This document shows positions 1 through 63,083 of a DNA stretch of 64,000 bases, in pieces. The notes below the pieces were generated by a model that was given only the letters and a program-made list of their open reading frames with translations, searched no databases and was not told the origin of the DNA. The position numbers were made by a program, and so were the translations under genes. Each line of letters starts with the position of its first letter. The stretch's first letter is position 1. The stretch is from NCBI RefSeq assembly GCF_035046485.1, contig NC_085136.1, positions 221,158,853 to 221,222,852 on the forward strand, written 5' to 3'. This DNA is from Aedes albopictus. Taxonomy: Eukaryota > Arthropoda > Insecta > Diptera > Culicidae.

Positions 1-3000
1 ATTCCTCCAGGAATTCCTGCAAGGATTCCTCCAGGAATTCCTGCAAGGATTCCTACAGGAATTCCTGCAAGGATTCCTCCAGGAATTCCTGCAAGGATTC
101 CTCCAGGAATTCCTGCAAGGATTCCTCCAGGAATTCCTGCAAGGATTCCTCCAGGAATTCCTGCAAGGATTTCTCCAGGAATTCCTGCAAGGATTCCTCC
201 AGGAATTCCTGCAAGGATTCCTCCAGGAATTCCTGCAAGGATTCCTCCAGGAATTCCTGCAAGGATTCCTCCAGGAATTCCTGCAAGGATTCCTCCAGGA
301 ATTCCTGCAAGGATTCCTCCAGGAATTCCTGCAAGGATTCCTCCAGGAATTTCTGCAAGGATTCCTCCAGGAATTCCTGCAAGGGTTCCTCCAGGAATTC
401 CTGCAAGGATTCCTCCAGGAATTCCTGCAAGGATTCCTCCAGGAATTCCTGCAAGGATTCCTCCAGGAATTCCTGCACGGATTCCTCCAGGAATTCCTGC
501 AAGGATTCCTGCAAGGATTCCTGCAAGGATTCCTGCAAGGATTCCAGGAATTCCTGCAGGGATTCCTCCAGGAATTCCTGCAGGGATTTCTCCAGGAATT
601 CCTGCAGGGATTTCTCCAGGAATTCCTCCAGGGATTCCTCCAGGAATTCCTCCAGGGATTCCTCCAGGAATTCCTCCAGGGATTCCTCCAGGAATTCCTC
701 CAGGGATTCCTCCAGGAATTCCTCCAGGGATTCCTCCAGGAATTCCTCCAGGGATTCCTCCAGGAATTCCTCCAGGGATTCCTCCAGGAATTCCTCCAGG
801 GATTCCTCCAGGAATTCCTCCAGGGATTCCTGCAGGAATTCCTCCAGGGATTCCTCCAGGAATTCCTCCAGGGATTCCTCCAGGAATTCCTCCAGGGATT
901 CCTCCAGGAATTCCTCCAGGGATTCCTCCAGGAATTCCTCCAGGGATTCCTCCATGAATTCCTCCAGGGATTCCTCCAGGAATTCCTCCAGGGATTCCTC
1001 CAGGAATTCCTCCAGGGATTCCTCCAGGAATTCCTCCAGGGATTCCTCCAGGAATTCCTCCAGGGATTCCTCCAGGAATTCCTCCAGGGATTCCTCCAGG
1101 AATTCCTCCAGGGATTCCTCCAGGAATTCCTCCAGGGATTCCTCCAGGAATTCCTCCAGGGATTCCTCCAGGAATTCCTCCAGGGATTCCTCCAGGAATT
1201 CCTCCAGGGATTCCTCCAGGAATTCCTCCAGGGATTCCTCCAGGAATTCCTCCAGGGATTCCTCCAGGAATTCCTCCAGGGATTCCTCCAGGAATTCCTC
1301 CAGGGATTCCTCCAGGAATTCCTCCAGGGATTCCTCCAGGAATTCCTCCAGGGATTCCTCCAGGAATTCCTCCAGGGATTCCTCCAGGAATTCCTCCAGG
1401 GATTCCTCCAGGAATTCCTCCAGGGATTCCTCCAGGAATTCCTCCAGGGATTCCTCCAGGAATTCCTCCAGGGATTCCTCCAGGAATTCCTCCAGGGATT
1501 CCTCCAGGGATTCCTCCAGGAATTCCTCCAGGGATTCCTCCAGGAATTCCTCCAGGGATTCCTCCAGGAATTCCTCCAGGGATTCCTCCAGGAATTCCTC
1601 CAGGGATTCCTCCAGGAATTCCTCCAGGGATTCCTCCAGGAATTCCTCCAGGGATTCCTCCAGGAATTCCTCCAGGGATTCCTCCAGGAATTCCTCCAGG
1701 GATTCCTCCAGGAATTCCTCCAGGGATTCCTCCAGGAATTCCTCCAGGGATTCCTCCAGGAATTCCTCCAGGGATTCCTCCAGGAATTCCTCCAGGGATT
1801 CCTCCAGGAATTCCTCCGGGGATTCCTCCAGGAATTCCTCCGGTGATTCCTCCAGGAATTCCTCAAGGGATTCCTCCAGGAATTCCTCCAGGGATTCCTC
1901 CAGGAATTCCTCCAGGGATTCCTCCAGGAATTCCTCCAGGGATTCCTCCAGGAATTCCTCCAGGGATTCCTCCAGGAATTCCTCCAGTGATTCCTCCAGG
2001 AATTTCTCCAGGGATTCCTCCAGGGATTCCTCCAGGAATTCCTCCAGGGATTCCTCCAGGAATTCCTCCAGGGATTCCTCCAGGAATTCCTCCAGTGATT
2101 CCTCCAGGAATTTCTCCAGGGATTCCTCCAGGGATTCCTCCAGGGATTCCTCCAGGAATTCCTCCAGGGATTCCTCCAGGAATTCCTCCAGGGATTCCTC
2201 CAGGAATTCCTCCAGGGATTCCTCCAGGAATTCCTCCAGGGATTCCTCCAGGAATTCCTCCAGGGATTCCTCCAGGAATTCCTCCAGGGATTCCTCCAGG
2301 AATTCCTCCAGGGATTCCTCCAGGAATTCCTCCAGGGATTCCTCCAGGAATTCCTCCAGGGATTCCTCCAGGAATTCCTCCAGGGATTCCTCCAGGAATT
2401 CCTCCAGGGATTCCTCCAGGAATTCCTCCAGGGATTCCTCCAGGAATTCCTCCAGTGATTCCTCCAGGAATTTCTCCATGGATTCCTCCAGGGATTCCTC
2501 CATGGATTCCTCCAGGAATTCCTCCAGGGATTCCTCCAGGAATTCCTCCAGGGATTCCTCCAGGAATTCCTCCAGGGATTCCTCCAGGAATTCCTCCAGG
2601 GATTCCTCCAGGAATTCCTCCAGGGATTCCTCCAGGAATTCCTCCAGGGATTCCTCCAGGAATTCCTCCAGGGATTCCTCCAGGAATTCCTCCAGGGATT
2701 CCTCCAGAAATTCCTCCAGGGATTCCTCCAGGAATTCCTCCAGGGATTCCTCCAGGGATTCCTCCAGGAATTCCTCCAGGGATTCCTCCAGGAATTCCTC
2801 CAGGGATTCCTCCAGGAATTCCTCCAGGGATTCCTCCAGGAATTCCTCCAGGGATTCCTCCAGGAATTCCTCCAGGGATTCCTCCAGGAATTCCTCCAGG
2901 GATTCCTCCAGGAATTCCTCCAGGGATTTCTCCAGGAATTCCTCCAGGGATTTCTCCAGGAATTCCTCCAGGGATTCCTCCAGGATTTCCTCCAGGGATT

Positions 3001-4080
3001 CCTCCAGGGATTCCTCCAGGAATTCCTCCAGCGATTCCTCCAGGAATTCCTCCAGGTATTCCTCCAGGAATTCCTCCAGGGATTCCTCCAGGAATTCCTC
3101 GAGGGATTCCTCCAGGAATTCCTCCAGGGATTCCTCCAGGAATTCCTCCAGGGATTCCTCCAGGGATTCCTCCAGGGATTCCTCTAGGAATTCCTCCAGG
3201 TATTCCTCCAGGAATTCCTCCAGGGATTCCTTCAGGAATTTCTCCAGGGGTTCCTCCAGGAATTCCTCCAGGGATTCCTCCAGGATTTCTTCCAGGGATT
3301 CCTCCAGGGATTCCTCCAGGAATTCCTCCAGGGATTCCTCCAGGAATTCCTCCAGGTATTCCTCCAGGAATTCCTCCAGGGATTCCTCCAGGAATTCCTC
3401 CAGGGATTCCTCCAGGAATTCCTCCAGGAATTCCTCCAGGGATTCCTCCAGGAATTCCTCCAGGGATTCCTCCAGGGATTCCTCCAGGGATTCCTCCAGG
3501 GATTCCTCTAGGAATTCCTCCAGGTATTCCTCCAGGGATTCCTTCAGGAATTCCTCCAGGGATTCCTCCAGGAATTCCTCCAGGGATTCCTCCAGGGATT
3601 CCTCCAGGGATTCCTCCAGGGATTCCTCCAGGGATTCCTCCAGGGATTCCTCCAGGGATTCCTCCAGGGATTCCTCCAGGGATTCCTCCAGGGATTCCTC
3701 CAGGGATTCCTCCAGGGATTCCTCCAGGGATTCCTCCAGGGATTCCTCCAGGGATTCCTCCAGGGATTCCTCCAGGGATTCCTCCAGGGATTCCTCCAGG
3801 GATTCCTCCAGGGATTCCTCCAGGGATTCCTCCAGGGATTCCTCCAGGGATTCCTCCAGGGATTCCTCCAGGGATTCCTCCAGGGATTCCTCCAGGGATT
3901 CCTCCAGGGATTCCTCCAGGGATTCCTCCTGGGATTCCTCCAGGGATTCCTCCTGGGATTCCTCCAGGATATCTTCCAGGGATTCCTCCAGGAATTTCTC
4001 CAGGGATTCCTCCAGGAATTTCCCCAGGGATTCCTCCAGGAATTCTTCCAGGGATTCCCCCAGGGATTCCTCCGGGATTC
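1..4080. repeat. 12-bp minisatellite with 24-bp dimers
   Basis: Tandem array of the 12-mer RGGATTCCTCCA, mostly as a 24-bp dimer alternating GGAATTCCTCCA and GGGATTCCTCCA. Three zones are visible. About 1-600 has dimers with CCTGCAAGG variants. About 600-3580 is the alternating dimer. About 3582-3968 is a homogenised block of pure GGGATTCCTCCA. Marker variants such as GTGATTCC recur near 1987, 2095 and 2455, at spacings of 108 and 360 bp, both multiples of 12; this points to amplification of segments longer than the dimer. The array is cut by the window start. Because 12 is a multiple of 3 and the consensus has no stop in any of the six frames, its long ORFs ([12 protein letters not shown] and EFLEESLE repeats) are not evidence of coding. 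Confidence 0.97.
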
Positions 4081-4380
4081 CTTCAGGAACTCTTCAAGGG
4101 ATTCCTCCTAGTATTACTCCAGAGAATACTCTAGGAATTACTCCAGTGATTTTTCCAGGAATACCTCCACGAATTCTTCCAGGTATTTTTTTCAGGAATT
4201 TCTCCAAGGATTCCTCCAAGTCTTTCTCCAGGGATTCCTCCAGGATATCCCTCAGGAATTCCTCCAGGAATTTTTCCAAGGTTTTCTCTAGGAACTCATC
4301 CATGGATGCCTCCAGGAATTTCTTATGGTATTCATCCAGGAATTCCTCCAAGAAGTGCTGCAGAGAAACCTCCATGAATT
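4081..4380. repeat. decayed edge of the 12-mer array
   Basis: The 12-mer ATTCCTCCAGGA can still be followed, but with many substitutions and small indels, fading into non-repetitive AT-rich DNA near 4380. It resembles the larger decayed blocks at 16975-22990, 43985-45190 and 63105-64000. Confidence 0.85.
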
Positions 4381-10598: not shown

Positions 10599-10661
10599 AT
10601 TTGATTTATTGGTTTGTCTTTATTAAAGAGACTTTCAGCCCTTGGCTTGTTCGTCTCGTCT
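10599..10661 (-). mobile_element. ultrashort hairpin retroposon, copy 1 (63 bp)
   Basis: Read on the minus strand it starts AGACGAGACGAAC, forms a hairpin with outer stem GAGAC/GTCTC and inner stem AGCC/GGCT, and ends TTTAATAAAGACAAACC with an A-rich tail. It is bounded by a perfect 11-bp duplication, ACCACTTGTTG, at 10588-10598 and 10662-10672. A TSD plus an A-rich 3' end indicates target-primed retroposition. The whole insertion is only 63 bp. Related copies are at 42811-42865, 44322-44374 and 63025-63083. Confidence 0.85.
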
Positions 10662-29690: not shown

Positions 29691-30339
29691 CTTTCCGGAG
29701 GACCATAGTGCACAGTTGAACTTTAGAGTCTTTCCCTGGCACTCGGACGTAGATCAGCCGCCCCTAACATGGGGATCAGACGCTGTTGTGAGCCGCTCCT
29801 CCTGGAGAACAGACGCTCAGGTTTACCGAAGCAAACCCCTCCTTCCCTGTCAGCCTACGACCAAAGTTCCCACCAGGGTTGGTTACCCGATCTTCCCTAA
29901 GGTTGCTCATAGTTTCCGGCCGGTACCGCGTGGAGGTAGGGATAGGAGTTGCTGGGCAGAGGCTAGTGGATCACAATGAGATCTGAATTGCACAGCATTC
30001 CCAGCCTTTACCGCAGCATACCCAGCCTTTATGTGTTTTGTCGTTTGTAGTTAAATTTTATGCTTCCATGTACCTGACGCGGATCGTGTGTAGTAAATAT
30101 TGAGTGATCACCTGACGTGGGTGGTCGATTGTTTGCCTCCCGCGTAAAGCAAGCAATAGCGCGGCAGCCAGCATGGCATAATTCAACATCAAAAGGTCGT
30201 ATTACTTATCAAAGTGAATCCCGACCCAACGATACCTTTCCTACTAACAAACAAACCTTCCTTCAACCTTTGGTGAAGACGTGCGGTCAACGCCAACTTT
30301 CACATAACAGAGATTGGTACTAATGGGACGAACAATGGT
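29691..30339. other. probable RTE 5' UTR and unclassified repeat
   Basis: 29691-29995 may continue the 5' UTR of the minus-strand RTE copy. 30085-30320 contains CCTTCCTACTAAC-type sequence loosely like 18440-18475 in the 1.16-kb retroelement. No gene was seen. Confidence 0.4.
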
Positions 30340-32806: not shown

Positions 32807-33732
32807 AAAAGATTTACAAATAGGAGAAGCATGTTTTTCGAGCAAAGAAAATTGTACCTGACCCAATCATTTGTTCTAACCCCGAATGTAAAACTAAAGC
32901 ATTACATCATACTTCACATGCATAGCAAACCCCGAAACGTAACAACAAAATAAATCCATTTCCTGTTTGTGAAGACCCGTATTTAAACGTAGGTACGCAT
33001 TGCTATCAACATGGTTGATAGTTTCCCCTTTCTTTGTATCTGCACCACTCCGGCAAGATAAAATCAGCCCAGCTTTGCGGTTACATCCGTTATTTTGGGT
33101 GCTGCTTCAAATTCCACCGACTAACGGCAGAAGGGGGATGCGGACCAACATCCTCGCAAATCCCACTGCACTACTGTTATTATCGGTTATGGTCCACTAT
33201 GCCAGAGATCAGACATATAGGGAAATATGAGGCAAACCTATGACAAGTGCCCATCAAAATGATCCACTATTGACCATATCGTGCTCTTCGCTCGGACCAC
33301 CGTTTCGAATGCTGCATGGACGCCGCGGCATGGCGGATTTGGGGTTTTCAGTCCCAACATTTCTGGTCTCAATGGGATGCCAATACCTTGCCACAGAATG
33401 ACGAGGCTTTTCACACAGTTGGGTACTTTGAACACTTTTTTGGCTCGTACCTACTAGAGGTGCATGTGAAATTTCTGGTTGAGCTTGGAATATATTTTTG
33501 AAGGGCTGCAGTTCCGCTTCTGTGGGCCTGAATCATCCGACCAGCAATGGGTTTCCATTTCAATCAATGCTATATGCTATCGTGGCATGATGGCATGATT
33601 GAATTGGACTCTAATTTTGTTGTGTGGTTTTAGGAGGGCTTGTTGGGCTTTGAATGATGGTGGATAAATGCATGAAGGGATAAATAAATGCTTATTCTGA
33701 TCAATAATTGTGAGGATATTAGATCCGACTTG
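32807..33732. other. no recognised gene
   Basis: Mixed-composition DNA without long ORFs; a transition to the 11-bp satellite begins near 33720. Confidence 0.4.
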
Positions 33733-35289
33733 GATTTCGATTCGATTTCGATTCGATTTCGATTCGATTTCGATTCGATTTCGATTCGATTTCGATTCGA
33801 TTTCGATTCGATTTCGATTCGATTTCGATTCGATTTCGATTTGATTTCGATTCGATTTCGATTCGATTTCGATTCGATTTCGATTCGATTTCGATTCGAT
33901 TTCGATTCGATTTCGATTCGATTTCGATTCGATTTCGATTCGATTTCGATTCGATTTCGATTCGATTTCGTTTCGATTTCGTTTCGATTTCGATTCGATT
34001 TCGATTCGATTTCGATTCGATTTCGATTCGATTTCGATTCGATTTCGATTCGATTTCGATTCGATTTCGATTCGATTTCGATTCGATTTCGATTCGATTT
34101 CGATTCGATTTCGATTCGATTTCGATTCGATTTCGATTCGATTTCGATTCGATTTCGATTCGATTTCGATTCGATTTCGATTCGATTTCGATTCGATTTC
34201 GATTCGATTTCGATTCGATTTCGATTCGATTTCGATTCGATTTCGATTCGATTTCGATTCGATTTCGATTCGATATTGATTCGATTTCGATTCGTTTTCA
34301 ATTCGATTTCGATACGATTTCGATTCGATTTCTATTCGATTTCGATTCGATTTCGATTCGATTTCGATTCGATTTTGATTCGATTTCGATTCGATTTCGA
34401 TTCGATTTCAATTCGATTTCGATTCGATTTCGATTCGATTTCGATTCGATTTCGATTCGATTTCGATTCGATTTCGATTCGATTTCGATTCGATTTCGAT
34501 TCGATTTCGATTCGATTTCGATTCGATTTCGATTCGATTTCGATTCGATTTCGATTCGATTTCGATTCGATTTCGATTCGATTTCGATTCGATTTCGATT
34601 CGATTTCGATTCGATTTCGATTCGATTTCGATTCGATTTCGATTCGATTTCGATTCGATTTCGATTCGATTTCGATTCGATTTCGATTCGATTTCGATTC
34701 GATTTCGATTCGATTTCGATTCGATTTCGATTCGATTTCGATTCGATTTCGATTCGATTTCGATTCGATTTCGATTCGATTTCGATTCGATTTCGATTCG
34801 ATTTCGATTCGATTTCGATTCGATTTCGATTCGATTTCGATTCGATTTCGATTCGATTTCGATTCGATTTCGATTCGATTTCGATTCGATTTCGATTCGA
34901 TTTCGATTCGATTTCGATTCGATTTCGATTCGATTTCGATTCGATTTCGATTCGATTTCGATTCGATTTCGATTCGATTTCGATTCGATTTCGATTCGAT
35001 TTCGATTCGATTTCGATTCGATTTCGATTCGATTTCGATTCGATTTCGATTCGATTTCGATTCGATTTCGATTCGATTTCGATTCGATTTCGATTCGATT
35101 TCGATTCGATTTCGATTCGATTTCGATTCGATTTCGATTCGATTTCGATTCGATTTCGATTCGATTTCGATTTCGATTCGATTTCGATTTCGATTCGATT
35201 TCGATTCGATTTCGATTCGATTTCGATTTAATTTCGATTCGGTTTCGATTCGATTTCGATTCGATGTCGGTTCGATTTCGGTTCGATTT
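33733..35289. repeat. 11-bp satellite GATTTCGATTC
   Basis: About 140 tandem copies of GATTTCGATTC, very homogeneous, with scattered single-base variants (for example GTTTCG near 33970 and TATTG near 34274) and a few 6-bp slips near 35168. Decay increases at both edges, especially after 35230. All three forward frames give the same cyclic DFDSISIRFRF repeat and the reverse frames give ESKSNRNRIEI, all stop-free, so the 607-codon ORF here is not evidence of a gene. Confidence 0.97.
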
Positions 35290-36932
35290 AAATTCTGCAA
35301 AGTACTACATACACATCCATTTAATTCACAAAGTAATGATTTCCAGCACAGTTACCCTTTAAGGATTTCACTGGAAGGCAACCTCTACTCCGACATGTGT
35401 TCAATGTCATCCCCATCGGAATCTTTTGTCGCACAGATATCGTGTTCTACCTTGGTAATGTCTCGTTTGCAACAGTGCGTTCTTTTGCCTCCGTTTCGGA
35501 TCTTATTCTGAGCCCATCCGACACCTGACATGCAAATGCTTTTCTTCTAATTCACCTCTGAGACCCATCAAACCCTAAAGTGGCGAAGGCAACCCCTCTA
35601 TAACGGGTGGACTCCGTACGATCATGGCAGAAAAGGGATGGCGAAAGCCCGGCACACAAGTTTGCAATGGCGACGACGACGACGATGATGATGACATGGA
35701 AGGTGGGAACAATTAGACACGTCCGTTTTGCCACCAAACATTCCATGAGTTCGCAAATGCGCACGTTTCAGTCACTTTCTCACCGCGGCAGTACCGAGAA
35801 AAGTGCGAAATCTGAGTGCCGCAAACGAGGAATGTCTTTTATATTTCTTTGAAACGTGACAAAACTTTTATCTACAATTACAATAATGATACTTGCGAAT
35901 CGAGGGTTTACTCTCTATTCCAGAGATTTTTGGGAAACTGTAGACAAATGCAGGCAAATAGGCTTACTTCTTTGAGATATAAAAGCAAATAATGCAATCT
36001 TAAAGTAATTCTTAGTTGCAAGTTATCAGAATGGAAATATCCAATTTTAGACACATAAAAGTTTTACGGACAAGCAAAATTTGATAGAAAGTTTGCTTCA
36101 ACGATGGAAAAACCATCGTTCCAACCAAAAATTCGACTCCGAAAAAAAAACGTAACTCAATGATGATCTAGTAAAATAAGCGCGATAATTTGTTTTGATA
36201 ATAGTTAGCCAACTTTTTGTTTCCCTCTGAACCGCGTTGTTCCCGATACGGAACGCAGAGTCTGGGAAAATTCACAAACACCCTCCTGTTTTTTTGTTTG
36301 TTCCAAGCTAGCCGCCTACCCACAAACCTGGGTTTCTGTTTCAAACTTTGTCCTTGTTTTTGCGGGAGCCACGATCATTGGAGCAACCAGCCAGCCGGAG
36401 CCCCGGATAAAAGGTAACATTCACCTACCGGTTGTAATTGTGTTTTAATGAAAGTTGAACGAGTCTCGTGTGGGTACCAGTACTATGTTTGTTAGGCGGA
36501 CGGGTATCCCTGGTTGGTAACGATGTAATGATAATGGGCAAGAGGATTAGAGTTGTTACGTAATTACGTGAATGTCTCCTGTTGAGCAGTACAAGTAGAA
36601 CAGTTTCTCCACTTTAATTGATTAGAAAAGTTGCATTCCTCCACGGAACGGCGCAAACCGTGACATATTTCTAGTACTAGCATCATGTACAAGTAACCAC
36701 GCTGTTGAAGCAGTACGTTTTCGTGTCTCCGTGCAGGGTTAATCGTTTCCAGTCACCCTGAACGTCGTTCCTCTGACATACGGTCTGCGTACCCAGCCCA
36801 CCGCAGCCTGCCGTGTTTTATTCGTCCTCCAGTTTATAGCCAAGTATTTCTAGCAGCACTCCAGCTCTTCCACCAACTTCTCTCAACGACCATGAATGTC
36901 GTCTTCATTTGCGGTCAACGGGACTTAAGCTG
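35290..36932. other. apparently single-copy DNA, no gene recognised
   Basis: A (GACGAC/GATGAT) run near 35672-35695 and ordinary sequence otherwise. Small ORFs (for example 36217-36417) have no recognisable motif. Confidence 0.4.
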
Positions 36933-40925: not shown

Positions 40926-41311
40926 TGTGGAGCGGACCTGGTGTGGTGGTTAGAACACTCGACTATAACGCCGAGGACCTGGGATCGAATCCCACTCCCG
41001 ACAATACTCGCAAAATGTGGGTTCTATGGGGGGAAGTATTGTACATATTGATTTATTTTAGATCGAAGTCGATATGTGAAATCAAATATACCCAACAAAA
41101 GTTCGCCGAAGAAAAAACTTCGGCATTCTAATTGAAGCATCGCCGACACAGGCTATTCTTATGCGTCGGCGAACCCCAAATTAGAATGCCGATGCCGAAC
41201 TTCGCCGAAGATTTGACTTCCGAAGTTCAAACTTTCTCTCGCATGATCAATAATACGTGGGTCCCGAGATGAATTAGGGTTGAAAATCTCGTTAATACAG
41301 ACAAAAAGAAA
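40926..41311 (+). mobile_element. tRNA-derived SINE (type 2), split by an insertion
   Basis: 5' region TGTGGAGCGGACCTGGTGTG with A-box-like TGGTGTGGTGGTTAG and B box GGATCGAATCCC. The 3' end has CCCGAGATGAATTAGGG then TTGAAAATCTCG, followed by TTAATACAGACAAAAAG. An exact 10-bp TSD CATCTTCAAA lies at 40916-40925 and 41312-41321, which shows that both halves belong to one insertion. 41039-41253 is a later insert. The 3' hairpin (CGAGAT/ATCTCG) matches the type in the ultrashort retroposons. Confidence 0.9.
41039..41253. mobile_element. foldback element inside the SINE
   Basis: Flanked by TA (41037-41038 and 41254-41255). Comparison with the uninterrupted SINE copy at 43550 shows that this segment is extra. 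The core at about 41099-41210 is an imperfect palindrome: TTCGCCGAAG, CGGCATTCTAATT and ATCGCCGAC, each mirrored. The inverted arms are internal rather than terminal, as in elements with subterminal inverted repeats. Confidence 0.8.
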
Positions 41312-43549: not shown

Positions 43550-43731
43550 TGTGGAGCGGATCTGGTGTGATGGTTAAAGCACGTGACTATCACGCCGAGG
43601 ACCTGGGATCGAATCCCACTCCCGACTAACTCGCAAAATGTGAGTTCTTCCTTCGGAAGCGAAGTAAACCCTGGGTCTCGAGATGAAAAAAGGATGGAAA
43701 TCTCGTTAAAACAGAAAAAAAACAATTCCGA
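43550..43731 (+). mobile_element. tRNA-derived SINE (type 2), uninterrupted copy
   Basis: TGTGGAGCGGATCTGGTGTG start, A box TGGTGTGATGGTTAAAGC, B box GGATCGAATCCC, CTTCCTTCGGAAGCGAAGTA, and 3' end CTCGAGATGAAAAAAGG then ATGGAAATCTCGTTAAAACA with an A tail. It gives the reference structure for the split copy at 40926-41311. TSD not clear. Confidence 0.85.
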
Positions 43732-43984: not shown

Positions 43985-45190
43985 CTGAATGAGTTTCTTC
44001 TAACAATCTTTCAGCAGTTCATTCTGGAATTCCTCAAGGAGCTTCTTTTTGGATTCCCATTTCTGAGAATTCCTCCCTTTTCAACTCCTCCAGCACTTTC
44101 TTCTGGGATTTCTCCGAGAATTTCCATTGGAATTCCATTTGAGATTTCCTCCTGTTCTTCGTATTTCTTCAGGGGTTCCTTCAGAGATCCCTCCAAGAAC
44201 TATTTTCGGAGTTCCTTCTTCGATTCCACTTAAAGTTCCTTCTGGGATTTCTCCGGAAGTTTTTTTTTATAAGGTTTTTTCTAAAAGTTTATCCATGGTT
44301 TCATTCGGGAGTTCTTTCAAGAGAGACGAACCAGCCCCAGGCTGAAAGTCTCTATAATAAAGACAAAAAAAAAAAGTTCTTTCAAGGTTTTCGTCTCCTT
44401 TGTTTCACCAGCGGATTCGTCGGACATCTCTTTAAGGATTTCAAATGGAATTTCTTTTGAGATTTCATCAGAACCTCTTTCTGGGATTTCGGAATAAGTT
44501 TCTTTAGGGATTCCTCCAGGAACTCACTCAGATATTCATTCCGAGATCTCTGTAGGAAACCCTTCCAGAATTCTTTCAAAACCCCTCCAGAAGTTGCCTC
44601 TGGGATTCCTCCAGGAGTTTTTTTCGAATTCCTTCAGGAATTCCTTCGTGGATTCTTCTGGGAGTTTCTTCTGGGATTTTTCGAGGACTTCCTTCTAGGA
44701 TTTTTCGAGGACTTCCTTCTAGGATTCATCCAGGTTTTTTTTTTCAGGTCTCCTCCAGGATCTTTTTCCGGCATCCCTTCATTCACTCCTTTAGGAATTC
44801 CTTCAGGATTTTCTTTCTAAGGTTTCACCAGGAGTTCTATCTGGATATCTTTCGGGATTCCCCAAAACATATTTTCGGGATGCCTTCAGTAATTTCTTTC
44901 GTGATTTGTTTAAAAATTTAAAAAATTCAAGTTCGTTCTGAGACTCTACAAATAGCTCTTTCTGAATTTTTTCCAGGAGTTTATTTAAGATTTCTTTAAA
45001 AGTTCCATCTAGAGTTGCTCCAGAAACTCCTCACGGGATTTTTTTTAATTTCCTTTCAAGATTCCTCCAGGAGTTTCTTCTGAAATTCTTCTGAAAGTTC
45101 CTTGAGGGATTCCTTTTGAGATTCCTCCAAATTCTTTTGGAATGTTACCAGAAGCTTTTCTGGGATTCCCAAAGCAATTCCTGTGAAAAT
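43985..45190. repeat. decayed 12-mer block
   Basis: Degenerate TTCCTYCAGGA units in the same orientation as at 1-4380, often with TTTCTTCTGGGATT variants. One ultrashort retroposon (44322-44374) is inserted in it. The short ORFs are repeat-encoded. Confidence 0.8.
44322..44374 (+). mobile_element. ultrashort hairpin retroposon, copy 3 (53 bp)
   Basis: Reads AGAGACGAACCAGCCCCAGG, then CTGAAAGTCTCTATAATAAA, then GAC and an A10 tail. The perfect 12-bp TSD AGTTCTTTCAAG is at 44310-44321 and 44375-44386. Hairpin: GAGAC/GTCTC outer and CAGCC/GGCTG inner stems. AATAAA directly follows the hairpin. This is the cleanest copy, with nothing else in the insertion. Confidence 0.93.
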
Positions 45191-48559: not shown

Positions 48560-51500
48560 ACATATAATCTGCTGGGGGTGGAAGCTCAGGTAAAATATTA
48601 TCTCCTGGGCGCCCATTAAAAACACCACCCCCGGCGAAGACTGGCGCTCGAGCCTAGCTATTTAGCACTGTAGTTGGAGGAAATGCCAATGCAGAACCCG
48701 TAGCTTCCGGGAAGGTAAGCCCAGCTCCCTGGGTTAGTGGGTTGGTGTCAGGCCCTGCGAGCCAGCCGTAAAAAAGACTAGCACCGGAAAATCAACAAGA
48801 GAAGAATGCGAACCGATACCAATGGCGACGACCACAGCGACGAAAAGGGACTTGCGATTGGAAGCTCGGTACGTGGAACTGCAGATCTCTCAACTTCATC
48901 GGGAGCACCCGCATACTCGCCGATATACTGAAGGACCGCGGGTTCGGAATCGTAGCGCTGCAGGAGGTGTGTTGGACAGGATCTATGGTGCGAACGTTTA
49001 GAGGTAATCATACCATCTACCAGAGTTGCGGCAACACACGTGAGCTGGGAACAGCTTTTATAGTGATGGGCGACATGCAGAGGCGCGTGATCGGTTGGTG
49101 GCCGATCGACGAAAGAATGTGCAGGTTGAGGATCAAGGGCCGATTCTTCAACATCAGCATAATAAACGTGCACAGCCCTCACTCCGGAAGCACTGATGAT
49201 GACAAAGACGCATTTTACGCGCAGCTCGAACGCGAGTACGACAGCTGCCCAAACCACGACGTCAAGATCATCATAGGGGATCTAAACGCTCAGGTAGGCC
49301 AGGAGGAGGAATTCAGACCGACAATTGGAAAGTTCAGCGCCCACCAGCTGACGAACGAAAATGGCCTACGCCTCATCGATTTCGCCGCCTCCAAGAACAT
49401 GGCCATTCGTAGCACCTTCTTCCAGCACAGCCTCCCGTATCGTTACACCTGGAGATCACCACAACAAACGGAATCGCAAATCGACCACGTTCTGATTGAT
49501 GGACGGCACTTCTCCGACATTATCGACGTCAGGACCTATCGTGGCGCTAATATCGACTCTGATCACTATCTGGTGATGGTTAAACTGCGCCCAAAACTCT
49601 CCGTTATTAACAATGTACAGTACCGGCGGCCGCCCCGGTACGATCTAGAGCGACTGAAGCAACCAGATGTCGCCACCGCATACGCGCAGAATCTCGAGGC
49701 AGCGTTGCCGGACGAGGGTGTGCTCGATGTGGCCCCTCTAGAGGACTGCTGGAGTACAGTCAAATTAGCCATCAACAACGCAGCCGAGAGCACTATCGGG
49801 TATGTAGAACGGAGTCGACGAAACGATTGGTTCGACGAGGAGTGCAGAGCGATTCTGGAGGAGAAGGATGCAGCGCGGGCGGTAATGCTGCAGCATGGAA
49901 CCCGACAGAATGTGGAGCGATACAGACAGAAGCGGAAGCAGCAGACCCGTCTCTTCCGGGAGAAAAAGCGCTGCCTGGAAGGAGCGGAGTGCGAGGAAAT
50001 GGAACTGCTGTGCCGTTCACAGGAAACACGGAAGTTCTATCAGAAGCTCAACGCATCCCGCAAAGGCTACGTGCCGCAAGCCGAAATCTGCAGGGATAAG
50101 GATGGGAGCCTCCTGACGGACAAACGTGAGGTGATCGAAAGGTGGAAGCAGCACTTCGACGAGCACCTGAATGGCGAAGAGAATGTAGGCACGGAGGACC
50201 AAGGCAGCGGAGGAAATGACTATGTTGGTGCAGCAGAGGACGGGAACGAACCAACTCCCACGCTGAGGGAAGTTAAGGATGCCATCCACCAGCTCAAAAA
50301 CAACAAAGCGGCTGGTAAGGACGGTATCGCAGCAGAACTCATCAAGATGGGCCCGGAAAAGTTGGCCACCTGTCTGCACCAGTTAGTAGTCAAGATCTGG
50401 GAAACCGAACAGCTACCGGAGGAGTGGAAGGAAGGGATAATCTGTCCCATCCACAAGAAAGGCGACAAGTTAATGTGTGAGAACTTTCGAGCGATCACCA
50501 TTTTGAATGCCGCCTATAAAGTGCTATCCCAGATCATCTTCCGTCGTCTTTCACCTAAAGTAAATGAGTTCGTGGGAAGTTACCAAGCCGGTTTCATCGA
50601 CGGCTGGTCTACAACGGACCAGATCTTCACCGTACGGCAAATCCTCCAGAAATGCCGTGAATACCAGGTCCCAACGCATCACCTGTTCATCGACTTCAAA
50701 GCGGCATACGACAGTATCGACCGCACAGAGCTATGGAAAATTATGGACGAGAACAGCTTTCCCGGGAAGCTGACTAGACTGATAAGAGCAACGATGGACG
50801 GTGTGCAGAACAGCGTAAGGATTTCGGGTGAACTATCCAGTTCATTTGAATCTCGACGGGGACTACGACAAGGTGATGGACTTTCCTGCCTACTATTCAA
50901 CATTGCCCTGGAAGGTGTTATGCGACGAGCCGGGCTCAACAGCCGGGGTACGATCTTCACGAAATCCAGCCAATTTGTCTGTTTTGCGGATGACATGGAT
51001 ATTATTGCTAGAACATTTGGAACGGTGGCAGAACAGTACACCCGCCTGAAACGTGAAGCAGCAAAGGTCGGACTAGTGGTGAATGCGGCTAAGACAAAGT
51101 ACATGCTGGTAGGTGGGACTGAGCGAGACAGGACAAGCCTTGGCAGCAATGTTACGATAGACGGGGATACTTTCGAGGTGGTAGAAGAATTCGTCTACCT
51201 CGGTTCCTTGCTAACGGCTGACAATAACGTGAGCCGTGAAATACGAAGGCGCATCATCAGTGGAAGTCGTGCCTACTATGGGCTCCAGAAAAAACTGCGG
51301 TCAAAAAAGATTCACCCCCGCACCAAATGTACCATGTACAAGACGTTAATAAGACCGGTGGTTCTCTACGGGCACGAGACGTGGACGATGCTCGAGGAGG
51401 ACATGCAAGCACTCGGAGTTTTCGAGCGACGGGTGCTAAGGACGGTCTTCGGCGGCGTACAGGAGAACGGTGTGTGGCGGAGAAGGATGAACCACGAGCT

Positions 51501-51810
51501 CGCTGCACTTTACGGCGAACCCAGCATCCAGAAGGTAGCCAAAGCCGGAATGATACGGTGGGCAGGGCATGTTGCAAGAATGCCGGACAACAACCCTGCA
51601 AAGTTGGTGTTTGCTAACCATCCGGTTGGTACAAGAAGGCGTGGAGCGCAGAGAGCACGATGGGCGGACCAGGTGGAGCGTGATCTGGCGAGTGTTGGGC
51701 GTGACCGACGTTGGAGAGCTGCAGCTGCAAATCGAGTATTATGGCGGCAAATTGTTGATTCAGTATTATCATGAATTTGATGTTAACTAAATAAATGATG
51801 AATCTGCTAA
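48560..51810 (+). mobile_element. RTE-clade LINE, apparently full-length ORF
   Basis: Contains a 5' UTR of at least 200 bp ending GAGCCAGCCGTAAAAAAG (shared with the minus-strand copy at 29654-29690), a 1000-codon open frame, and a very short 3' end with TAAATAAATGATGAATC-like repeats. A short 3' UTR with simple repeats instead of poly-A is typical of RTE elements. The 5' boundary is approximate and no TSD was identified. Confidence 0.8.
48772..51774 (+). CDS. RTE-type endonuclease / reverse transcriptase
   Basis: Catalyses nicking of target DNA and reverse transcription of the element RNA (target-primed reverse transcription, in the nucleus). The frame opens after TAA 48769-48771 and runs 1000 codons without a stop. 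The APE-type endonuclease domain covers about residues 25-270: LGTWNCRSLN, ALQEVCWTG, IIIGDLNAQVG (catalytic D170), SQIDHVLIDGR and SDHYLV (D264-H265). The RT domain covers about 490-770: NNKAAGKDGIAAELIK, FRAITILNAAYKVL, LFIDFKAAYDSIDR, RGLRQGDGLSCLLFN and the F738-ADD box. The C-terminal part has YLGSLLTADNNVSREIRRRI and RPVVLYGHETW. No in-frame ATG precedes the endonuclease; the first, at 48985, is already past ALQEV. Translation may therefore start at a non-ATG codon or follow a short upstream ORF (48822-49001 in another frame). It resembles JAM1-type elements and may still be active. Confidence 0.92.
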   Translation, partial: KRLAPENQQEKNANRYQWRRPQRRKGTCDWKLGTWNCRSLNFIGSTRILADILKDRGFGIVALQEVCWTGSMVRTFRGNHTIYQSCGNTRELGTAFIVMGDMQRRVIGWWPIDERMCRLRIKGRFFNISIINVHSPHSGSTDDDKDAFYAQLEREYDSCPNHDVKIIIGDLNAQVGQEEEFRPTIGKFSAHQLTNENGLRLIDFAASKNMAIRSTFFQHSLPYRYTWRSPQQTESQIDHVLIDGRHFSDIIDVRTYRGANIDSDHYLVMVKLRPKLSVINNVQYRRPPRYDLERLKQPDVATAYAQNLEAALPDEGVLDVAPLEDCWSTVKLAINNAAESTIGYVERSRRNDWFDEECRAILEEKDAARAVMLQHGTRQNVERYRQKRKQQTRLFREKKRCLEGAECEEMELLCRSQETRKFYQKLNASRKGYVPQAEICRDKDGSLLTDKREVIERWKQHFDEHLNGEENVGTEDQGSGGNDYVGAAEDGNEPTPTLREVKDAIHQLKNNKAAGKDGIAAELIKMGPEKLATCLHQLVVKIWETEQLPEEWKEGIICPIHKKGDKLMCENFRAITILNAAYKVLSQIIFRRLSPKVNEFVGSYQAGFIDGWSTTDQIFTVRQILQKCREYQVPTHHLFIDFKAAYDSIDRTELWKIMDENSFPGKLTRLIRATMDGVQNSVRISGELSSSFESRRGLRQGDGLSCLLFNIALEGVMRRAGLNSRGTIFTKSSQFVCFADDMDIIARTFGTVAEQYTRLKREAAKVGLVVNAAKTKYMLVGGTERDRTSLGSNVTIDGDTFEVVEEFVYLGSLLTADNNVSREIRRRIISGSRAYYGLQKKLRSKKIHPRTKCTMYKTLIRPVVLYGHETWTMLEEDMQALGVFERRVLRTVFGGVQENGVWRRRMNHELAALYGEPSIQKVAKAGMIRWAGHVARMPDNNPAKLVFANHPVGTRRRGAQRARWADQVERDLASVGRDRRWRAAAANRVLWRQIVDSVLS

Positions 51811-63024: not shown

Positions 63025-63083
63025 ATTTTTATTATTATCTTTATTATCGAGATTTTCAGCCAGGGGCTGGTTCATCTCCGAAT
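63025..63083 (-). mobile_element. ultrashort hairpin retroposon, copy 4 (59 bp)
   Basis: Minus-strand reading: ATTCGGAGATGAACCAGCCC, then CTGGCTGAAAATCTCGATAA, then TAAAGATAATAATAAAAAT. The perfect 12-bp TSD AGTAGTTTTCTT is at 63013-63024 and 63084-63095. The outer stem is GAGAT/ATCTC instead of GAGAC/GTCTC, a compensatory change relative to the copies at 10599 and 44322. The inner stem CAGCC/GGCTG is conserved. Confidence 0.93.

Follow-up and report, generated by a model that had tools for sequence, protein, structure and literature searches.

The insertion and its surroundings in the window

The window, i.e., the whole 64-kb stretch of Aedes albopictus DNA that was analysed, contains an ultrashort retroposon inserted between two copies of a target-site duplication (Table 1). 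The 53-bp insertion, the AATAAA motif, the A10 tail and the perfect 12-bp duplication described in the initial annotation were all confirmed by direct reading; the 30-nt hairpin described there is also present, and its length by reading is 32 nt. The left and right repeats, both AGTTCTTTCAAG, agree without mismatch, and the observation of a hairpin-plus-tail insertion between perfect repeats is confirmed. The element reads AGAGACGAACCAGCCCCAGGCTGAAAGTCTCTATAATAAAGAC, followed by ten A, with AATAAA at 44356-44361 inside ATAATAAAGAC. Its hairpin, AGAGAC-GAAC-CAGCC-CCA-GGCTG-AAA-GTCTCT, consists of a 6-bp lower stem, an internal loop, a 5-bp upper stem and a 3-nt loop, and folds at -15.2 kcal/mol, compared with -3.39 +/- 1.95 in 200 shuffles (z -6.06). 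The score of 76.7 bits with model R1 was obtained with the focal copy included in the training set. No promoter was found by reading in the element, which is hairpin and tail only, and Rfam gave no match on the element in the window, nor on another ultrashort copy (L064), at E up to 10.

Table 1. Features of the ultrashort insertion, its relatives and the related SINEs in the window
Position	Strand	Feature	Basis
10599..10658	-	Second copy; AAG loop, CGAGAC 5' arm; CAACAAGTGGT on both sides	66.7 bits, in training set
40926..41310	+	Second SINE, of the same kind as at 43550; hairpin tail 41265-41307	41 bits
42813..42860	-	Third copy, more diverged; weak repeat ATTTCGAA / ATCTCGAA	60.1 bits, in training set
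43550..43721	+	tRNA-like SINE; 3' tail 43679-43721 is a decayed hairpin	Borders from BLAST match; 29.4 bits
44310..44321	+	Left target-site duplication, AGTTCTTTCAAG	Direct reading
44322..44374	+	Ultrashort retroposon: hairpin, ATAATAAAGAC, A10	53 bp; reading, fold, model R1
44322..44353	+	Hairpin, 32 nt	Fold; covariation in alignment A4; form seen at LINE 3' ends
44375..44386	+	Right target-site duplication, AGTTCTTTCAAG	Direct reading
63032..63079	-	Fourth copy, CGGAGAT type; repeat AACAAGAAAACTACT / AATAAGAAAACTACT	69.8 bits, in training set

Profile and pattern searches revealed three extra copies in the window, near 10.6, 42.8 and 63.0 kb, all on the minus strand. A 22-nt pattern with up to 3 mismatches matched the window three times and the shuffles not at all; a shorter pattern alone was not significant (4 window matches against a shuffle mean of 1.06), and the copy near 10.6 kb, first picked by it, fits the longer element patterns with 1-2 mismatches. 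In each of the extra copies the start lies no more than a few bases from the base of the hairpin, and the flanking repeats are clear in two of them and weak in one. The hairpin is also carried by two tRNA-like SINEs, the one at 43550 being presumably Feilai-like; the other is interrupted at 41026-41233 by about 208 bp of MITE-like sequence with self-complementary arms (66%).

The window contains a LINE with a reverse transcriptase, different from those treated below, at 48772-51774 on the plus strand, with a 1000-aa frame holding endonuclease and reverse transcriptase domains. A link between this LINE and the hairpin was considered and rejected, since the hairpin model finds nothing after the LINE in the window. 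A separate feature is an HDV-like self-cleaving ribozyme, drz-agam-1, at 29841-29958 on the minus strand (Rfam RF01787, 58.1 bits), which is possibly the 5' end of another retroelement. Long overlapping frames occur on both strands at 53-4134 and 33577-35511, and the first of these regions contains repeats spaced about 24 bp apart.

Abundance and target sites of the ultrashort copies

The genome search covered an assembly of 1.344 Gb, in which the contigs read include three large ones, of 338, 519 and 450 Mb. Exact matches to the hairpin pattern number 3,518, and 10,727 matches are obtained with up to 3 mismatches, compared with none for a reversed-pattern control. The main sample comprised 89 of 100 listed exact places (of the 3,518), located in the first 44 Mb of contig C1 (L001-L048, L069-L088 and L110-L129); this sample and those described below consist of first-listed or chosen places and are not random. 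Target-site repeats with a score of at least 9 flank 68 of the 89 copies and none of 445 mismatched pairs, commonly with a few extra bases between repeat and element. For the 21 copies in which no repeat reaches score 9, the start was judged solely from the absence of a common flank. Five insertions (L007, L035, L036, L041 and L066) have uninterrupted paralogous sites, relatives within the genome in which the repeat occurs once and the element is absent.

Subfamilies with nearly the same start were distinguished by AAG, TCG, CCA or TTG loops, or by an AGAGGT..GCCTCT stem. The focal element, with a CCA loop and an A tail, has a second member of its subtype in L028. On nearly identical hairpins, tails vary by subtype and include (TCAA)n, (TTAA)n, (TAA)n and A-runs, most copies read having one tail type; two places, L044 and L136, have a hairpin and no tail. 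The same ultrashort insertion occurs at C1:43.845 and 43.856 Mb (L064 and L065) in two inverted segments 11 kb apart, which are near-identical in the part compared, and this pair likely arose by duplication after insertion. Measured against what defines a SINE, the ultrashort copies have target-site duplications and a discrete 5' end, and neither reading nor Rfam detects in them an internal Pol III promoter or a head derived from tRNA, 5S or 7SL RNA.

Where the copies begin

In the main sample, the three bases preceding GACG are, going outward, A in all 89 copies, G in 88 (T in one), and A in 78 (G in 11), while position -4 is mixed (T33 A24 C17 G15). As this mixed position directly follows the near-fixed AGA, the common sequence begins at the base of the stem. 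The flanks were compared over 130 nt upstream of all 89 copies; the sole pair matching to near the junction was L069 and L078, and no common flank reaching the junction was found among the 68 copies with repeats. Hence 87 of 89 exact copies share no sequence upstream of the stem base, in agreement with the discrete 5' end at the hairpin base contained in the alternatives that the initial annotation had offered. In the 11 copies with G at -3, position -4 is C (7) or T (4); in 10 of these 11 the base after GTCTC is also G, hence unpaired, and the copies start one or two bases beyond the outermost pair, unless a C-G pair forms with a bulge. A second stem type, CGAGAC, has A at -4 in 27 of 28 places; it pairs with the T after GTCTCG as a seventh pair, and the sequence is mixed from -5 onward. 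The additional base pair in the stem of this second type is accompanied by a start that lies one base further out.

A 3'-anchored sample was drawn with a pattern running from the loop onward (1,244 matches) and is not selected for the 5' arm; it comprises 30 listed places inside the stretch covered by the exact-match list and covers starts up to column 18. The stem base is reached by 19 of 30 copies, 15 of them with an exact arm (9 in L001-L048 and 6 in L110-L115) and 4 with point changes (L049, L059, L061 and L063); L061 is counted here, the script having placed its start at column 4 owing to base changes. The remaining 11 copies start within the hairpin, at columns 6, 11, 14 (four times, two of which are copies of one event), 15, 16, 17, 17 and 18. 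Nine of these starts lie at the tip (columns 14-18), one at the upper-stem base (column 11) and one at column 6; two of the 11 copies lack a repeat by the script. No copy in this sample extends further upstream than the hairpin (0/30). The stem base is the main 5' end, and the hairpin tip is the second. The earlier suggestion that cDNA always stops at the hairpin base was too strong, 11 of 30 copies starting inside the hairpin. The check proposed with it, a sharp 5' peak as opposed to a broad spread, was run on these samples and a sharp peak was found; the opposite outcome, most copies extending upstream with random truncation points, was not observed, as only L069 and L078 continue upstream among the 89, and none among the 30.

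Parent LINEs and long relatives

With a pattern for stems that start with C or T and end with G or A, 28 places of the CGAGAC type were obtained, all of which were read. Four of them are LINE ends (L135, L141, L142 and L145) with one common upstream sequence, 20 are ultrashort copies, and four are other places, i.e., L136, without a tail, and L139, L143 and L154, of other subtypes. In L135, L141 and L142, which were read further up, the terminal part of a frame, containing TWVPGHCGVTGNESADHLANLG or the later part of it, is followed by a stop codon, the 3' UTR and then the hairpin; the script's repeat calls for L135 and L142 were disregarded, as the 5' ends of these elements lie far upstream. 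The LINE terminates with the hairpin ACGAGAC..GTCTCGT, followed by TAATAAAGAC(AAT)n. The 20 ultrashort copies begin at ACGAGAC, share this hairpin and end in a TAATAAAGAC-like tail, which is (AAT)n in most of them; 17 of the 20 have a repeat with a score of at least 9. One LINE thus has its hairpin and tail type in common with 20 ultrashort copies. Among the 24 LINE or ultrashort copies of this type, no intermediate LINE truncation was found.

Long relatives were also found in the TCG/TTG class. In L069 and L078, with TTG and TCG loops, the hairpin is preceded by the end of a coding region, a stop codon and a 3' UTR measuring a few dozen bases; their upstream sequences are 80.5% alike over 200 bases and no repeat is present at the hairpin, and they represent ends of a longer coding element. 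The other copies of this class are ultrashort, with repeats. The upstream part of L077, also without a repeat, reads by eye like a reverse-transcriptase frame.

These data bear on the possibility that the copies are ordinary 5'-truncated LINE or SINE copies with random ends, whose sharp start would be due to chance. Like such truncated copies, the ultrashort elements have a target-site duplication and an intact LINE 3' end and lack the 5' part. The truncation points of 5'-truncated LINE copies are normally scattered, whereas the ends described here lie mainly at one base and, to a lesser extent, gather at the hairpin tip. Starts within the hairpin in 11 of the 30 3'-anchored copies, and truncation within the tRNA part in 2 of 20 SINE copies, would suit random ends. 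However, the common sequence begins at the stem base in 87 of 89 copies (L069 and L078 being the exceptions) and in 20 of 20 CGAGAC copies, and the only longer copies seen run into coding sequence. With this sharp start and without intermediates, random truncation was rejected for the samples read, and we consider it extremely improbable.

The LINE protein was used for a further search, in which 150 of 9,472 candidates were scored. Five places show at least 98% identity, and the other scored places 47-59%. For 20 of the 150, chosen among the better ones, about 620 nt following the protein match were taken, and the hairpin was present on 14 of these 20 ends (L158, L160, L162, L163, L164, L167, L168, L169, L170, L171, L172, L173, L175 and L177); within that distance, none was found in L159, L161, L165, L166, L174 and L176. 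L177 is a fifth copy of the CGAGAC parent LINE, and L167/L172 and L168/L171 each appear to be two members of a single family. Another LINE type, with an AAC loop, has 14 exact places, at least 4 of which adjoin LINE protein matches. In the C-terminal 172 aa of the LINE, Pfam RNase_H (E 2.9e-5) and zf-RVT (E 0.015) were matched, both under the cut-offs; the RNase_H match covers the end of the domain only and scores 24.7 bits against a cut-off of 25.8, and weak matches to RNase H1 were obtained in the PDB (best E 0.046). Of the two features by which the I-like LINE group is recognised, an RNase H domain and a (TAA)n-type tail, the parent LINE shows the end of such a domain, below the cut-off, and (AAT)n tails. 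On sequence grounds, the parent LINEs appear to form a large group with such a C-terminus, and the ultrashort copies seem to hold little of them beyond the 3'-terminal hairpin.

For covariation, 23 hairpins from LINEs, the SINE and ultrashort copies were aligned, the rows having been obtained with a pattern or with a structure-containing model. Two-sided changes occur at 7 of 11 pairs, in 26 cells compared with 8.4 +/- 3.2 in shuffles, and 96.1% of cells pair; the count of further pair types in these 23 hairpins is not above shuffles (92/500). As in stringent LINE 3'-tail systems, a 3' hairpin is common to LINE and SINE and kept by compensatory change.

It could also be proposed that the ultrashort elements are a minimal SINE family, in which a ~45-nt hairpin RNA would be transcribed from a few source genes by outside promoters and copied by LINE machinery; the main (TCAA)n family would then descend from source genes, independently of LINE RNA. 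Such a family would account for the thousands of close copies given by the pattern count, mostly with one tail type among those read, and for several subfamilies with nearly the same start. In line with it, no AAG-loop copy joined to a longer element was seen among the 89 read. Against an origin from LINEs stands that no parent was found for the main hairpin with its (TCAA)n tail or for the CCA loop with an A tail of the window copy, no AAG- or CCA-loop copy among the 89 having upstream sequence in common with another. A LINE 3' end in common with ultrashort copies was found for the CGAGAC type, and no LINE with the exact hairpin of the window copy was detected. Against a minimal SINE family stand the match of the CGAGAC/(AAT)n copies to one LINE in hairpin and tail type and the long relatives of the TCG/TTG class; as these two sets have a LINE or long relatives, no source gene is needed for them. 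In addition, the fourth window copy, of the CGGAGAT type, resembles the LINE L163, and no promoter is read in the element. Taken together, we regard source genes of this kind as quite improbable.

The SINE as a control

The genome contains 6,729 exact matches to the SINE-type tail, and the SINE hairpin has the same shape as that of the ultrashort copies, with paired changes. Of 100 listed places, 20 were read, three of them picked for a GGGCTG variant. Fifteen are full length, starting at the SINE head, two of these with internal deletions; with the two truncated in the tRNA part, the hairpin was copied through in 17 of 20, a figure obtained for a hairpin that differs in sequence from the ultrashort one and is to this extent an imperfect control. 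Among the other places, L099 begins at the loop, and L096 apparently close to the base of the hairpin. In L094, a different tRNA-like head is fused to the loop half of the SINE hairpin, and this copy is possibly a template-switch chimaera. Derivation of the ultrashort copies from the SINE alone was rejected, as the SINE tails represent a different subtype of the hairpin and most SINE copies (15 of 20) are full length.

How the 5' end could be set

We interpret the ultrashort elements as retrocopies of the LINE hairpin alone, with a 5' end set by structure, and assign to this reading a probability of about 0.93. The mechanism proposed for it assumes that the LINE protein would bind the 3' hairpin and that the LINE RNA would be degraded from its 5' side, or cut, up to the bound and folded hairpin. 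The remaining stub of about 45 nt plus tail would then serve as a full substrate for target-primed reverse transcription and be copied to its end, and the tail would be lengthened by slippage to (TCAA)n, (AAT)n, (TTAA)n or A-runs. Such a remnant of decayed LINE RNA, protected by protein, may be one example of a short RNA that starts at the stem base. Including the stub step, the explanation as a whole has in our view slightly better than an even chance of being right.

One of the alternatives places the determining event in cDNA synthesis. The LINE reverse transcriptase, on full LINE RNA, would copy the hairpin and terminate or dissociate just past it; in a variant of this model, the hairpin might stay tied to the tail-binding region of the protein. 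In zebrafish L2 LINEs, the 3' stem-loop is bound by the part of the protein located between endonuclease and reverse transcriptase (PMC4176376). The match of the 5' end to a structural boundary in two stem types, and the hairpin and tail type shared by a LINE with its ultrashort copies, would be expected from such a stop as well. However, a structural block met by a polymerase arriving from the 3' end would be expected ahead of the hairpin and not behind it; at the 5' base the reverse transcriptase has already passed the whole hairpin, and a cDNA stop there is therefore not the best mechanism. The copying-through of the related SINE hairpin in 17 of 20 cases and the lack of intermediate truncations in 24 CGAGAC-type copies also speak against it. 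A short RNA whose 5' end lies at the base of the stem is thus favoured over a polymerase stop, since the start follows the stem base in two stem types and the related SINE hairpin is normally copied through, and we consider the cDNA stop rather unlikely. Of the earlier proposal of a LINE/SINE tail with a hairpin stop, the LINE/SINE tail is retained and the stop is not.

Relation to known elements

UnaSINE1 is an example of the SINE partner in stringent-type LINE/SINE pairs. Such pairs, in which the LINE protein recognises a common 3' stem-loop, are known for UnaL2, ZfL2-1 and ZfL2-2 (PMC4176376). The system presented here resembles them in that one genome contains a LINE and a tRNA-like SINE with a common 3' hairpin, followed by a short tandem-repeat or A tail, and the stem is kept by paired changes. 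It differs in that most copies read of one hairpin type are the hairpin alone, with a fixed 5' end. L2 elements are not known to have an RNase H-like C-terminus, unlike the LINE group described here. As for the SINE, the window element is presumably of the Feilai type known from Aedes aegypti, having like it a tRNA-like head with GGGATCGAATCCC, an A-rich end and a high copy number. The Feilai-like SINE is about 170 bp long with a promoter-like head, whereas the ultrashort copies have no head.

Short non-autonomous elements derived from LINEs are represented by RIME, SIDER and Bov-A, of about 100-550 bp. These also originate from the LINE's own ends and are moved by its machinery; in contrast, only the 3' hairpin and tail remain in the elements presented here, in more than one hairpin type. 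Among the literature matches listed, no title or abstract opening described this sequence or a class consisting of the hairpin alone with its 5' end set by structure. Viral and prokaryote contigs scanned with exact patterns gave no match.

Significance

The ultrashort copies represent a natural experiment suggesting the minimal template accepted by LINE machinery, and a genomic record of which 3' RNA pieces become inserted. The positions of their starts hint that RNA shape decides where copies begin. More tentatively, and at somewhat less than even odds, the 5' ends might be read as a frozen map of RNA breakdown, in which LINE mRNA would have been degraded down to the 3' hairpin bound by protein, and the resulting stub inserted thousands of times. 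As the LINE group, the SINE and their common hairpin are found together in one genome, the origin of 5' truncation, by fall-off of the polymerase or by a degraded template, becomes testable. Copies of 45 bp may have been overlooked by repeat annotation. If the reading as a map of RNA breakdown is true, then the stub of about 45 nt may be the smallest substrate that target-primed reverse transcription uses in nature, stub insertions outnumber the LINE itself in at least one LINE family, and hairpin-only retroposition would regularly accompany, as a by-product, any LINE whose 3' hairpin is strong.
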